DNA from: Candidatus Fermentibacterota bacterium | GTDB lineage: Bacteria > Fermentibacterota > Fermentibacteria > Fermentibacterales > JCC-6 | Length of the DNA stretch: 41,330 bases | Reading direction: 5' to 3' | NCBI GenBank assembly: GCA_029571005.1 | Contig: JAKPTG010000023.1 | Location: 1-41,330 of the forward strand | Part shown: positions 1,262-8,806 of the stretch, in pieces | How the letters are laid out: each line of letters begins with the position of its first letter | Numbering within the stretch: position 1 is the stretch's first letter | Position numbers and translations under genes: made by a program | The notes under the pieces: model-generated | What the model saw: only the letters and a program-made list of their open reading frames with translations | Told to the model about the DNA's origin: nothing | Database searches by the model: none

Positions 1262-2368
1262 TTAGCGCCTGTAGGAGTAGATCAGTGGAGCCGGGATGCA
1301 GAACAGGGACTCGGGTTTTTCCGACCGTTGCTCACTGACCTGGAGGATGGTGGTGATGACGCCGTTGGCCGCCCCTTTGGGAACCGCCATGATGCATGTT
1401 TCCCTGGCCCCCCCGGGTGAACCGTCCGTTTCGAGCCGTCGAATCCTGGCGTTGGTCGCCCCGAGGACGCCCTTGTCCATGGCGGCCTCCACATAGGCGG
1501 GGGTGTTTTCCTCCATAACGGTCAGGCATATCAGAACGTAATTGCGTTGCAGGGTGAACGAGGGCTTTGCCGGCGGCCCGGGAAACCTGCGGCGCCAGGC
1601 GGTTCCAGCCTTGAGTTCGTCTATGGCGGTGATGATCTGCCCCATGCTGGCGGAATACTCCTGGTGACCGATTCGCAGGCGGGTGTCCAGGTGGCCGTAC
1701 AGCACCGGAGAACAGAAGACGAACCCTCTTCCGGGACGATCCAGGCGCCCCTCATTCACCAGAAGGCCTATTATCCCTTCGGCATCCAGGGATGACACCA
1801 AGAGGTGCAGGAGTTGTTTTTCCGGTGATACGGTTATTCTCAGGAGCCCCAGCCTGTCTCTGATGCCGGTTCCCATCCCAAGGGTTATCGTGGGCACCCC
1901 GGTGCCCAGGGAAAGGGCGACCCTGGCCAGGGCGTCGCCGGCGTCCTTCATTGAAAGGATGAATGTCAGAAGGGCCAGGTTCCTCAGGGGAACGGCTATA
2001 CCGGCGGCGTTTTCCTGGGGGTGGGTCCGCTCCGGAGGCGTAGCTGTGTATTCCTTTATCTCCTGGACGAAAATCGTTCCCCGTCCGGGGTGATTGAGTT
2101 CGAACTCGTCGGTGATTTTTCCCACCAGCGCTTCGGAGGAGGACGGGGGGACGTGGAGCCGGTAAACGCCCACCGCGGCTCCCGCCGGGCGGACGATGCT
2201 TCCCGGCAAACCGAACTTCCGGTTTGTCCTGAACTGCCGGACCGTCCTGCCCGGCTCCATGTAGGCCTGCCGGACGCCCGCCTCTGCAAGGAGGTCCGCC
2301 ATCCGGGAATGGAGGTGTTCGTGCAGGATGCAGGTGACCCGGTGAAGCTTGGTGAAACCTTCGTCCAT
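1262..2368 (-). CDS. Protein with three tandem P-II-like modules, partner of the adjacent DUF1538 protein
   Basis: Three successive beta-alpha-beta/beta-alpha-beta segments: HRVTCILHEHLHSRMADLLAEAGVRQAYMEPGRTV..GRGTIFVQEI; LALLTFILSMKDAGDALARVALSLGTGVPTITLGMGTG..GRGFVFCSPV; NYVLICLTVMEENTPAYVEAAMDKGVLGATNARIRRLET..SLFCIPAPL. Starts 1 nt after the DUF1538 gene ends. Confidence 0.75.
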   Translation of the reverse strand: MDEGFTKLHRVTCILHEHLHSRMADLLAEAGVRQAYMEPGRTVRQFRTNRKFGLPGSIVRPAGAAVGVYRLHVPPSSSEALVGKITDEFELNHPGRGTIFVQEIKEYTATPPERTHPQENAAGIAVPLRNLALLTFILSMKDAGDALARVALSLGTGVPTITLGMGTGIRDRLGLLRITVSPEKQLLHLLVSSLDAEGIIGLLVNEGRLDRPGRGFVFCSPVLYGHLDTRLRIGHQEYSASMGQIITAIDELKAGTAWRRRFPGPPAKPSFTLQRNYVLICLTVMEENTPAYVEAAMDKGVLGATNARIRRLETDGSPGGARETCIMAVPKGAANGVITTILQVSEQRSEKPESLFCIPAPLIYSYRR

Positions 2369-2369
2369 C

Positions 2370-4334
2370 TCAGTCCTCGGTTTCCGCGGCGGAGATCATT
2401 ATCCTCCGCTGGCGCCGGTGAACCATGATTCCGAAAAACAGTGTGCAGATCACGGGGTAGGCCGAAGCCATGGCCAGTATTCCGAAACCGTCGGAGACCC
2501 CGACGGCGCTTCCCAATCCCAGGCCGAGGTTCAGCACCAGGGGTACCGTGACGGGCCCGGTCGTCACCCCACCGCTGTCCCAGGCCATGCCCACGAAGAG
2601 GTCGTCGCTGAGCAGGGTGAGGGGAATCAGGAGCAGGTAAGGCGGCAGGAGCATCCAGATCATGGGTATCTCGAAGATTATGCGGAGTATTCCGGCCGTA
2701 ACCCCGATTCCCACCCCCAGTGCGACCGCCCGGATCATCCCGGTCGATTTCACCGTTCCCACGGTGATCTCCTCCACCGTGTGCCCCAGCGCCTTCAGGG
2801 ACGGCTCCGCCAGGGCGGTGCCAAAACCGGTTCCGAAGGCGAAGAGAAGCACCAGGAAGAGCCCTACTCCCCCCGAGGCGGACCATTTGCTCCGGGGAAG
2901 CACGTTCTGGTGCAGGTAGGTGTTGTCTTCCGGGTTGAGCCGGTCCGGCACGAACGGCTCGATAGTCGGGGAATGCCCGCCGTCCAGGAGGAAGTAGGAC
3001 CGCTCTTCCCCGTCGGGACCGACGGCGGGAATCAGCATGGAGGTGTCGAAATCCGGGATCGCCACGGTCACCGTATCGTTACCGTCATCGGTGATGGAAT
3101 GGGAGAGCCTGCGGCCCGAATCGGCGCCAAGGGGTGCAAGGCCGGTGCTGATCCCCGCACCCAGAAGGATCATTCCCACAAGGGTGAAGGCTATTCCCAG
3201 AAGCAGTTCGTCCACGTAACGCGGCCGGTCCCGGAGAAGAAGAAAAAGCGCAGCCGTCATAAAGAGGGTTACGGGCATCACGGCCTGGATCGAGGGCTTC
3301 ACTTCCCTGAGTAACTCGGCCAGAATCCTGTCCTTCACCCCGGAAATTTCCCGGGATGGAACGGCGGCCTCGTCGAGAAGAGCGTAAGCATCACCCGTCT
3401 CCTCCATGACCGCATTGCGGGTGGAATCGCTTCCATGGGCCATGGCGTATTCGAACAGGGCTTTCTCGCTGCCGAAAAGCCCCAGGGCCTTCTCCCTGTA
3501 TTCCCGGGAGAAGAATCGGGCCTCGTCCGTGGGCGCCGGCAGCCCGGAGGCGGAAATCACCCCAAGGACCATGACCGCCAGTGCGGAAAGGGTCACGGCC
3601 AGTGTCACAATGCCGAAGGAGTCGCCGGGTCCGCCGCCCCGGTGGTGCCGGGCCCTGGAAAGCCCGACTCCAAGCGCCAGAGTCAGGGGCACGGTCACCG
3701 GGCCGGTGGTGATAGCCCCCGAATCCCATGCCAGGCCGAGTATCGGTGAGAGCATCGGGAACCTGCTGAGCATCAAGCTGAAGATCGTCAGCACCGGGAT
3801 CACCGTCAGGATCACCGGTTTGATCCGGAAGCCGAGGTGGAACCTCAAAAGACCTATGGTCACCGCGAGCCCGACCCCGGTGGCGATCGCCATCACCAGC
3901 GCCCCGGAGTTCAGCTCCAGGAGGTAGTACAGAAGCGGAGACTCCCAGGCCGGTATTCCGCCGGAGGCGGTTCGGAGGGAAACCACCGCCGGTTCGGCCA
4001 GGGTGGCGGTAACCCCTAACAGCAGGCCGAACAGAGCTATCATGAGCCCTCCCCCCCTGAGGGGGAGCTGGATACCGACCCTCTCGCTCAGGGGCATGAG
4101 CCCCAGGAGAAGGCCTTCCAGGAAGAAGGTCAGCCCCATTACCACTATCCCGATCCCAAGCCCCAGGGTGACCGCATCCCCCGGGGGGCTCCGGAAAACC
4201 AGAAGCTGGTAGCCGACCATGTAGAGAACGATGAACGCCACCGCACGAACCTGGTCGCGCACCCTGGAACCGGCATAGGAGGCGACCATGCGGAGCGCGG
4301 TTGGGAAGGGCACTCGGATTTTTGATTTCGCCAT
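2370..4334 (-). CDS. DUF1538 family membrane protein with two DUF1538 repeats in one chain (putative transporter)
   Basis: Start at MAKSKIRVPFPTAL. Internal duplication: GLAWDSGAITTGPVTVPLTLALGVGL and GMAWDSGGVTTGPVTVPLVLNLGLGL; many TM segments. Confidence 0.82.
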   Translation of the reverse strand: MAKSKIRVPFPTALRMVASYAGSRVRDQVRAVAFIVLYMVGYQLLVFRSPPGDAVTLGLGIGIVVMGLTFFLEGLLLGLMPLSERVGIQLPLRGGGLMIALFGLLLGVTATLAEPAVVSLRTASGGIPAWESPLLYYLLELNSGALVMAIATGVGLAVTIGLLRFHLGFRIKPVILTVIPVLTIFSLMLSRFPMLSPILGLAWDSGAITTGPVTVPLTLALGVGLSRARHHRGGGPGDSFGIVTLAVTLSALAVMVLGVISASGLPAPTDEARFFSREYREKALGLFGSEKALFEYAMAHGSDSTRNAVMEETGDAYALLDEAAVPSREISGVKDRILAELLREVKPSIQAVMPVTLFMTAALFLLLRDRPRYVDELLLGIAFTLVGMILLGAGISTGLAPLGADSGRRLSHSITDDGNDTVTVAIPDFDTSMLIPAVGPDGEERSYFLLDGGHSPTIEPFVPDRLNPEDNTYLHQNVLPRSKWSASGGVGLFLVLLFAFGTGFGTALAEPSLKALGHTVEEITVGTVKSTGMIRAVALGVGIGVTAGILRIIFEIPMIWMLLPPYLLLIPLTLLSDDLFVGMAWDSGGVTTGPVTVPLVLNLGLGLGSAVGVSDGFGILAMASAYPVICTLFFGIMVHRRQRRIMISAAETED

Positions 4335-4628
4335 AATCAAGGAACTATATGAACCACGGAATAGTCGGGCAAGGCGGCCGCCCCGGCGGCCCCTTGCCCT
4401 GTTCTGCCATCGGGACCTTTCATCGGAGGAAGTGGGTATAATTTCCTGAACGTCGCCCGGCCGTGAGGGTCGGGCTGCACCGGGCCGGGGAGGAAGGCAA
4501 GGTGAACCCCCCGCCTGGGGGGGTGTTGGAGAATTGCCGCCGTCCCGGCGGTGGCCGGCATCGCGGTCTGTGTTTTGCGGGGATATAATTATCAATAGCA
4601 ATACAGTATAATCATCCGGAGGTTTGAA

Positions 4629-7294: not shown

Positions 7295-8806
7295 CTAAAG
7301 CCCGAAAAACATTTTTATGCGTGCGAGAACGCCGTGACTTCCCGGGCTCATCGAGCTTTCATGCCCTTCTACGATCTTTCCGCTCTCGACGGAGGCTCTC
7401 CGCAGGTCTCCGATCCGGGCCTCAAGGAGTTCCGAGAGGGGAGCCACCAGGGAGGGGTCGGACTGGAACACCCGGTTCATGCCTTCCTTGGAAACTCTCA
7501 CCACTTCGGTTTCCTCCCGGGCGGTCACCGTCGCGGTCCTGGGTTCGCCGGTGAGCAGGCTCATCTCGCCGAAAAAGCTGCCGGGATCCAGCTCCGCCAC
7601 CTTCATTGCCCTGTGTCCTTCGCCGGCGGTTACCGAAACCTCGACACCACCGCTTCGTACAATGTACAGGCTGTTTCCCGGGGCACCCTGCCTGACCAGC
7701 ACTTCTCCGGCCGTGAACCGGAGCAGCGAGCAGCCCTCCGCGAGCTTCTGCAACTGATCTTCCGGCAGCGGATGGAAAAGGGGTGCGCTCCTCAGGACGG
7801 CGAGTATCTCGTCTCTCGTCTGTTCCAGAAGGAGGCGCTCCCGGTCGGTCTCCACCGGATGCATGTAGATGTTCCGGATGGGGAACGGAGTGCGCATCCC
7901 CGCCCGGTGCAATCCGTACCATACCTTTGTTTTGACCGAGTCGATTATTGTGTATTTCGAGGCGAAATCGGTAATCCAGAACCGGACGTTGTAGCAGATG
8001 GAACTCTCGTCGAATGAGTCGAGGAACACCGAGGGGGCGGGCCTGGGGGAAATCCCCCGGGTGTCCAGGGCCGACTGAAGCAGAACCCTCTTGACCTGTT
8101 CCGGGGGGTACCTGTAGGAGACCCTCACCTCGAACTTGACGAAATGGAGTTTTGAAGGTCTTCCGTGGTTCTTCACCGGGACTTTGGAAACGACGGAGTT
8201 GGGAAACAGCACCAGATCGTTGTACCTGTCGCGGATGGAGAGGCTTCGCCAGCTCATCTCTATAACCTGTCCCTCGACGCCGTCTATGGTCACCCAGTCG
8301 TTTTTCTCGTAGGGCCTTTCGAATTGGAGCGCCAGACCGCTGAACACGTTGCCGAGAATGTCCTGAAGGGAGAGGCCTATCACCGCGGAAACCACTGTGG
8401 AGGTGACCAGGAAGGCGGTCAGCTTCACATGGAAAAGCAGGTTGAGAAGAATCAGCGCCAAACCCGTCATCAGCACGAAGACCAACACGTCCAGCACCAG
8501 CTTCGGTATGGGCATGGTCAGTTTCTTCCGGGCCAGGTTTGCGCAGAAGAGCATGAAAACAAACCGCAGAAGGGTATAAAAAAGGAGCATTATGGTCAAC
8601 GACAGGACGATCTTGGCTATCAGCGAGGTGAAAGTCACTCCGAAGGCCCGGAGCAGAAGGTAAATAATGCCGAACAATCCGGTAAGCGCCAGCCACAGCG
8701 ATACGTTCCCTTCCAGCGCCTTCCTCCGGGTGAACCAAAGCAGGAAACCGACCCCCAGGCCGAGGCACACGGCACCGGCCAAGTTGATCCAGAACGCAGC
8801 GTTCAT
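7295..8806 (-). CDS. MscS-family mechanosensitive channel with C-terminal cyclic nucleotide-binding domain
   Basis: GLSLQDILGNVFSGLALQFERPYEKNDWVTIDGVEGQVIEMSWRSLSIRDRYNDLVLFPNSVV (MscS) and LLRFTAGEVLVRQGAPGNSLYIVRSGGVEVSVT...GSFFGEMSLLTGEPRTATVTA (cNMP-binding). Confidence 0.93.
   Translation of the reverse strand: MNAAFWINLAGAVCLGLGVGFLLWFTRRKALEGNVSLWLALTGLFGIIYLLLRAFGVTFTSLIAKIVLSLTIMLLFYTLLRFVFMLFCANLARKKLTMPIPKLVLDVLVFVLMTGLALILLNLLFHVKLTAFLVTSTVVSAVIGLSLQDILGNVFSGLALQFERPYEKNDWVTIDGVEGQVIEMSWRSLSIRDRYNDLVLFPNSVVSKVPVKNHGRPSKLHFVKFEVRVSYRYPPEQVKRVLLQSALDTRGISPRPAPSVFLDSFDESSICYNVRFWITDFASKYTIIDSVKTKVWYGLHRAGMRTPFPIRNIYMHPVETDRERLLLEQTRDEILAVLRSAPLFHPLPEDQLQKLAEGCSLLRFTAGEVLVRQGAPGNSLYIVRSGGVEVSVTAGEGHRAMKVAELDPGSFFGEMSLLTGEPRTATVTAREETEVVRVSKEGMNRVFQSDPSLVAPLSELLEARIGDLRRASVESGKIVEGHESSMSPGSHGVLARIKMFFGL

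Follow-up and report, generated by a model that had tools for sequence, protein, structure and literature searches.

Few signalling proteins are as widespread as those of the P-II type, which are regarded as homotrimers whose three sites are equivalent. An open reading frame (ORF) in the stretch of DNA analysed here (41,330 nucleotides, hereafter the window) raises the question of whether such a trimer can be fused into one chain, and of what a protein of this kind would serve. The original prediction, made from the sequence alone, had read the ORF as three P-II modules in tandem, each with a glycine-rich loop in the T-loop position, and had proposed that they form a covalent pseudo-trimer with three non-equivalent loops, dedicated to the adjacent DUF1538 membrane protein.

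The ORF, which had been placed at 1262-2368 with a length of 368 aa, was confirmed, and all the strings quoted for it were present; its strand, left unstated, is minus (Table 1). It opens with ATG and reads from 2368 down to 1262, the plus strand of this interval being interrupted by stops. It starts 1 nt past the stop of the DUF1538 gene (GACTGAGATGGAC), and a ribosome-binding-like GAGGA is located ahead of it, within the 3' end of the DUF1538 gene. The DUF1538 protein matched PF07556 at E 6e-95 in two stretches and had no convincing counterpart in solved structures (best E 0.021). The listed TTG start at 4601 (743 aa) appears too early, and translation likely begins at the ATG at 4334 (654 aa). 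Directly 3' of the P-II gene, a BrnT toxin (PF04365, 1.4e-26) and a CopG-type antitoxin (PF12441, 4.1e-32) are encoded at 512-1095 on the minus strand. The same strand carries, at 7295-8806, a mechanosensitive channel of the MscS type that has a cyclic-nucleotide-binding domain at its C-terminus (PF00924, PF21082, PF00027).

Table 1. Features of the P-II/DUF1538 locus, with positions in the window.
Feature	Position	Strand	Basis
Three-module P-II-like protein P0001, 368 aa	1262..2368 (including stop)	minus	ORF, profile, AlphaFold2
P-II module 1, aa 5-108	2045..2356	minus	AlphaFold2, conservation, module profile
P-II module 2, aa 126-227	1688..1993	minus	Conservation, module profile
Conserved linker behind module 2, aa 227-262 (36 residues)	1583..1690	minus	Conservation, AlphaFold2
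P-II module 3, aa 272-367	1268..1555	minus	Conservation, module profile
DUF1538 membrane protein, two DUF1538 repeats, UmpAB cation/H+ antiporter homologue	2370..4601	minus	PF07556

Queried alone, P0001 had no P-II match in Pfam, the gathering score of PF00543 not being reached, and in the PDB it retrieved merely GlnB-2 (E 0.12, in module 2). The kinship became visible through homologues, collected in an alignment and profile of 48 sequences, window protein included. PF00543 was matched by 17 of the 48 at E<=0.01, through module 2 in those inspected, and the profile retrieved 37 PDB sequences at E<=1, all of them P-II, with the best stretches at positions 9-108, 188-226 and 282-372. Separate profiles, each built from 30 relatives of one module and counted at E<=0.1 against the PDB, recovered P-II proteins in 27/27 matches for module 1 (best 8.8e-5), 21/22 for module 2 (best 8.7e-5) and 33/33 for module 3 (best 1.3e-5). 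The modules are also homologous to one another (hhalign 98.9, 97.9 and 95.6%). A few weak matches to other families (MtrC, HisG_C, EMC1, MerC) were isolated and were dismissed; the HisG_C fold is known to resemble that of P-II.

Structure prediction gave a concordant picture. AlphaFold2 run on the P0001 sequence by itself returned a useless model (pLDDT 39), and the model based on the 48-homologue alignment (mean pLDDT 89.5, pTM 0.89) was used instead. It contains three complete ferredoxin-like beta-alpha-beta/beta-alpha-beta units, with strands (E) and helices (H) at E6-16 H17-29 E34-49 E57-73 H75-89 E97-106 in the first, E128-138 H143-153 E160-168 E183-192 H196-206 E215-226 in the second, and E273-285 H286-298 E303-313 E321-330 H331-346 E354-365 in the third. 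Foldseek matched the model to P-II chains, CPII among them, with probability 1.00 and a target TM of up to 0.70. The top Foldseek ranks by E-value, aldoxime dehydratase and sulfur oxygenase reductase, are long proteins with ferredoxin-like units in tandem; they align at a query TM of about 0.2 and an rmsd of 14-19 A, and were not considered real. Because profile searches, inter-module homology and structure prediction agree, all three modules of P0001 are P-II homologues. The claim of three modules in one chain thus held: the model shows neither fewer than three P-II units nor an unrelated fold.

Conservation across the 48 sequences, which come from many phyla, differs by module, as computation shows directly. 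Module 2 is the best kept (mean 0.54; modules 1 and 3 reach 0.37-0.38), with GxGxRDxLGLLRITIPxEKE in the T-loop position and the B-loop LDRPGRGF; G166, R170 and G215 never vary, and G168, G174, R177, K184 and G213 hardly ever do. Compared with GlnK1 of Methanocaldococcus, module 2 lacks five residues in the T-loop and has PGRGF for PGDGK in the B-loop, which aligns without a gap. The position of the canonical B-loop lysine is occupied by F in 37, I in 6 and L in 4 of the 48, so that ATP may not be the ligand. Module 1 has kept the B-loop PGRG (G95 in 46/48, G97 in 48/48) and R41 (42/48), and has lost the T-loop-base glycines. In module 3 a GAxGAT turn is retained (G300 in 47/48, G303 in 46/48), and the B-loop and the T-loop-base glycines are gone. 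This pattern supports the predicted non-equivalence of the three loops; the glycine-rich T-loop expected in each module was borne out only in part, a truly glycine-rich, strongly conserved base being present in module 2 and not in 1 and 3. In the absence of binding data, conservation allows the inference of one site-like cleft that is well kept, and perhaps of another.

The segment behind module 2 stands apart from the other linkers. Its conservation (0.56) is on a par with that of module 2, compared with 0.17-0.20 elsewhere between modules, and its motif HAASxEQIIAAIDxLKGxTxWRxR includes D250, W258 and R259, invariant in 48/48. AlphaFold2 placed it at low confidence, with a helix at 242-253. 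Every three-module protein has such a helix-D-W-R linker, whereas the single-module P-IIs at DUF1538 loci are without it. Since it is strongly conserved yet poorly placed in the model, it is suggested, by inference, to be a binding segment for a partner.

Used directly as a query of genome contigs, P0001 found no match, and its homologues were reached via the DUF1538 neighbour. The DUF1538 alignment was scanned against genome contigs and the best 80 loci were kept; these are the loci most like that of the window and hence no random sample of the family. P-II-like sequence lies directly 3' of DUF1538 in 78 of the 80, the contig ending less than 200 bases past the DUF1538 match in the other two (L024 and L060). 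An intact three-module ORF of about 360-425 aa follows immediately in 52/80 loci. One further locus (L094, 6048-7262, from a Chitinophaga pinensis bin) holds a three-module gene with a frameshift, either a sequencing error or a pseudogene. Other DUF1538 loci carry two adjacent single-module P-II genes (22) or one (7, including L025, which is cut by the contig end). Where two such genes neighbour each other they differ (e.g. L005, L012, L067, L080, L090) and could form a heterotrimer. All intact fused chains, window included, have exactly three modules (53/53); no intact two- or four-module chain occurred among the surveyed loci, a two-module reading at L037 being cut by the contig end. The survey of DUF1538 neighbourhoods that the original prediction had proposed therefore yielded three-module and single-module partners, and no intact two-module one.

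Among 24 genomes searched whole, 23 have one three-module gene each. In the genome G121 a second three-module copy again lies directly behind a two-repeat DUF1538 gene, and in G120 the sole other match was a P-II of one module behind a DUF1538 gene with one repeat. A second DUF1538 system was observed in Pontiellaceae B12219 (L101, 2781-5046), comprising a DUF1538 with one repeat, a P-II with one module and, upstream, a protein that carries a PTS EIIA-type domain (PF00359, 6e-18), which suggests a PTS input to the DUF1538 antiporter family; this genome also carries the three-module form. In the genome of the window itself (92.6% complete), neither a PF00543 match nor an ammonium transporter (AmtB) was found. 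The conserved gene pair is thus shown by computation, and its strict adjacency, the second copy in G121 and the lack of a canonical P-II or AmtB in the window's own genome support the predicted dedication to DUF1538.

In a tree of module 2, whose members are mostly metagenome bins, a single change with support 94 separates three-module from single-module forms. Many phyla are represented on the three-module side, including Spirochaetota, Bacteroidota, Verrucomicrobiota, Kiritimatiellota, Lentisphaerota, Planctomycetota, Chlorobiota, Fibrobacterota, Gemmatimonadota, Bdellovibrionota and Pseudomonadota. When all modules were placed on one tree, modules 2 and 3 each formed one group and module 1 nearly so, which argues that the three-module form is old; the parent single-module gene of each module could not be resolved on that tree. 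The nearest relative of the window protein, 62% identical in module 2, belongs to a Spirochaetaceae bin. By tblastn the three-module protein was absent from 60 relatives, with nothing similar within its own order, and further DUF1538 matches were confined to remote genomes within the same domain. This distribution, the sole basis of the inference, is compatible with horizontal gain of the window copy. A number of the closest relatives come from bins that look, from their sample names, like soda-lake material, which is compatible with an alkaline Na+/H+ antiporter.

What, then, does the three-module protein do? The ORF likely encodes a single-chain P-II pseudo-trimer that is co-translated with the DUF1538 antiporter and dedicated to it, and that would gate its cation/H+ exchange; packing, ligand binding, docking and direction of control are inferred. 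An intramolecular trimer is indicated by the fact that all intact fused chains have exactly three modules, and a pTM of 0.89 despite low-confidence linkers implies that the units pack against one another in a definite way. Gene sets of one, two or three kinds of module would likewise be expected if the assembly always took three units. The fused pseudo-trimer is thereby strongly suggested, its pseudo-threefold axis being inferred and not derived from model coordinates. In the proposed mechanism the polypeptide would fold as a covalent pseudo-trimer, be translated together with the UmpAB-type Na+/K+:H+ antiporter encoded just upstream and, by analogy with GlnK-AmtB and SbtB-SbtA, dock on its cytoplasmic face. 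A small ligand, probably an adenine nucleotide, would bind one main cleft that includes module 2, for which no binding data exist, and its binding would open or shut the antiporter. The helix-D-W-R linker behind module 2 would be the best candidate for the antiporter contact. P-II proteins are known to gate transporters directly, in GlnK-AmtB and SbtB-SbtA, both of which pair a trimer with a trimer (PMC10710835). It counts against this reading that DUF1538 has two repeats and is no obvious trimer, whereas both known P-II-gated transporters are trimeric.

Three other explanations deserve consideration. The three-module protein could be a pseudo-signal protein, a structural or assembly partner that stabilises or caps the DUF1538 protein and has lost ligand sensing. 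This remains possible: the B-loop of module 3, the T-loop-base glycines of module 1 and the B-loop lysine have disappeared, and a linker as conserved as module 2 suggests that protein contact matters as much as ligand. Against it, the invariant and near-invariant residues of module 2 across many phyla have the pattern of a ligand site. An assembly of tandem modules between chains with no intramolecular trimer, for instance into a larger ring or by domain swapping, seems unlikely. Other P-II proteins can form higher assemblies, but the constant number of three modules per intact fused chain and the single-chain pTM speak against it here.

Least plausible of all, and in our view very unlikely, is a nitrogen-signalling P-II that was merely duplicated in tandem and stands beside DUF1538 by chance. 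The P-II homology itself and the annotation of the single-module neighbours on Methylocystis rosea plasmids as 'P-II family nitrogen regulator' would favour it; it is contradicted by an adjacency that is repeated in many phyla and, within one genome, at the second copy, and by the shortened T-loop. Nitrogen control is also unlikely because the window's own genome lacks PF00543 and an ammonium transporter.

The preferred reading, a dedicated single-chain pseudo-trimer, may be set against known systems. With canonical P-II (GlnB/GlnK, PF00543) the protein shares the module fold, the positions of B-loop and T-loop and, probably, the control of a transporter encoded beside it, as in the glnK-amtB logic. 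Canonical P-II is, however, a homotrimer of separate chains, whereas here three diverged modules lie in one chain, without the uridylylation tyrosine motif, the full-length T-loop or the B-loop GDGK, and linked to DUF1538 instead of nitrogen genes (amtB, glnA). As for ATP/ADP and 2-oxoglutarate, GxGxR...K and PGxG in module 2 are no more than suggestive without binding data. Single-module P-IIs beside DUF1538 (e.g. on the Methylocystis rosea plasmid NZ_CP044330) have the same partner gene and are of the module-2 type, matching its profile at E as low as 1e-31, but are encoded by one separate gene or by two, each of about 115-130 aa, without the linker motif, and presumably form homo- or heterotrimers. 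SbtB and CPII, P-II-like proteins of bicarbonate systems, are similarly dedicated to one transporter, SbtB locking the Na+-coupled SbtA (PMC10710835); they are homotrimers on other transporter families, in contrast to the fused form with an antiporter. The c-di-AMP-binding PstA/DarA proteins combine a long B-loop with a short T-loop, the reverse of P-II (loop definition in PMC6516651), a criterion that module 2, with its B-loop gapless against GlnK1, does not meet.

The transport function is itself inferred, from a distant and split relative. UmpA and UmpB (DUF1538) of Halomonas zhaodongensis make up a heterodimeric Na+(Li+,K+)/H+ antiporter that is most active at pH 9 (PMC5484666), a paper in which P-II is unmentioned. 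UmpA and UmpB are separate chains, whereas the DUF1538 protein of the window has both halves in one chain and the P-II gene behind it.

The open-access literature searched, which mostly excludes subscription papers, contained nothing linking DUF1538/UmpAB with P-II, and no report of three P-II domains in one chain or of a single-chain trimer, in agreement with the original prediction, which knew of none. The gene pair is already visible in RefSeq, where 'P-II family nitrogen regulator' stands beside 'DUF1538 domain-containing protein' on Methylocystis rosea plasmids. A single-chain P-II of three modules, widespread and paired with a cation/H+ antiporter family, thus appears to be undescribed.

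A review holds that P-II control is seemingly limited to transporters working as trimers (PMC10710835), and the DUF1538/three-module P-II system could test this restriction. In a bolder reading, towards which we remain slightly more sceptical than inclined, a non-homotrimeric transporter is gated by a covalent pseudo-trimer whose three faces differ and which has one main ligand site. If this were true, P-II control would not be confined to trimeric transporters, and the breaking of symmetry would allow one face to dock and another to sense. In a single-chain P-II the modules can be mutated separately, making cooperativity between P-II sites directly testable. For the DUF1538 proteins, a little-known cation/H+ antiporter family, the three-module P-II points to a switch controlled by nucleotides or metabolites.
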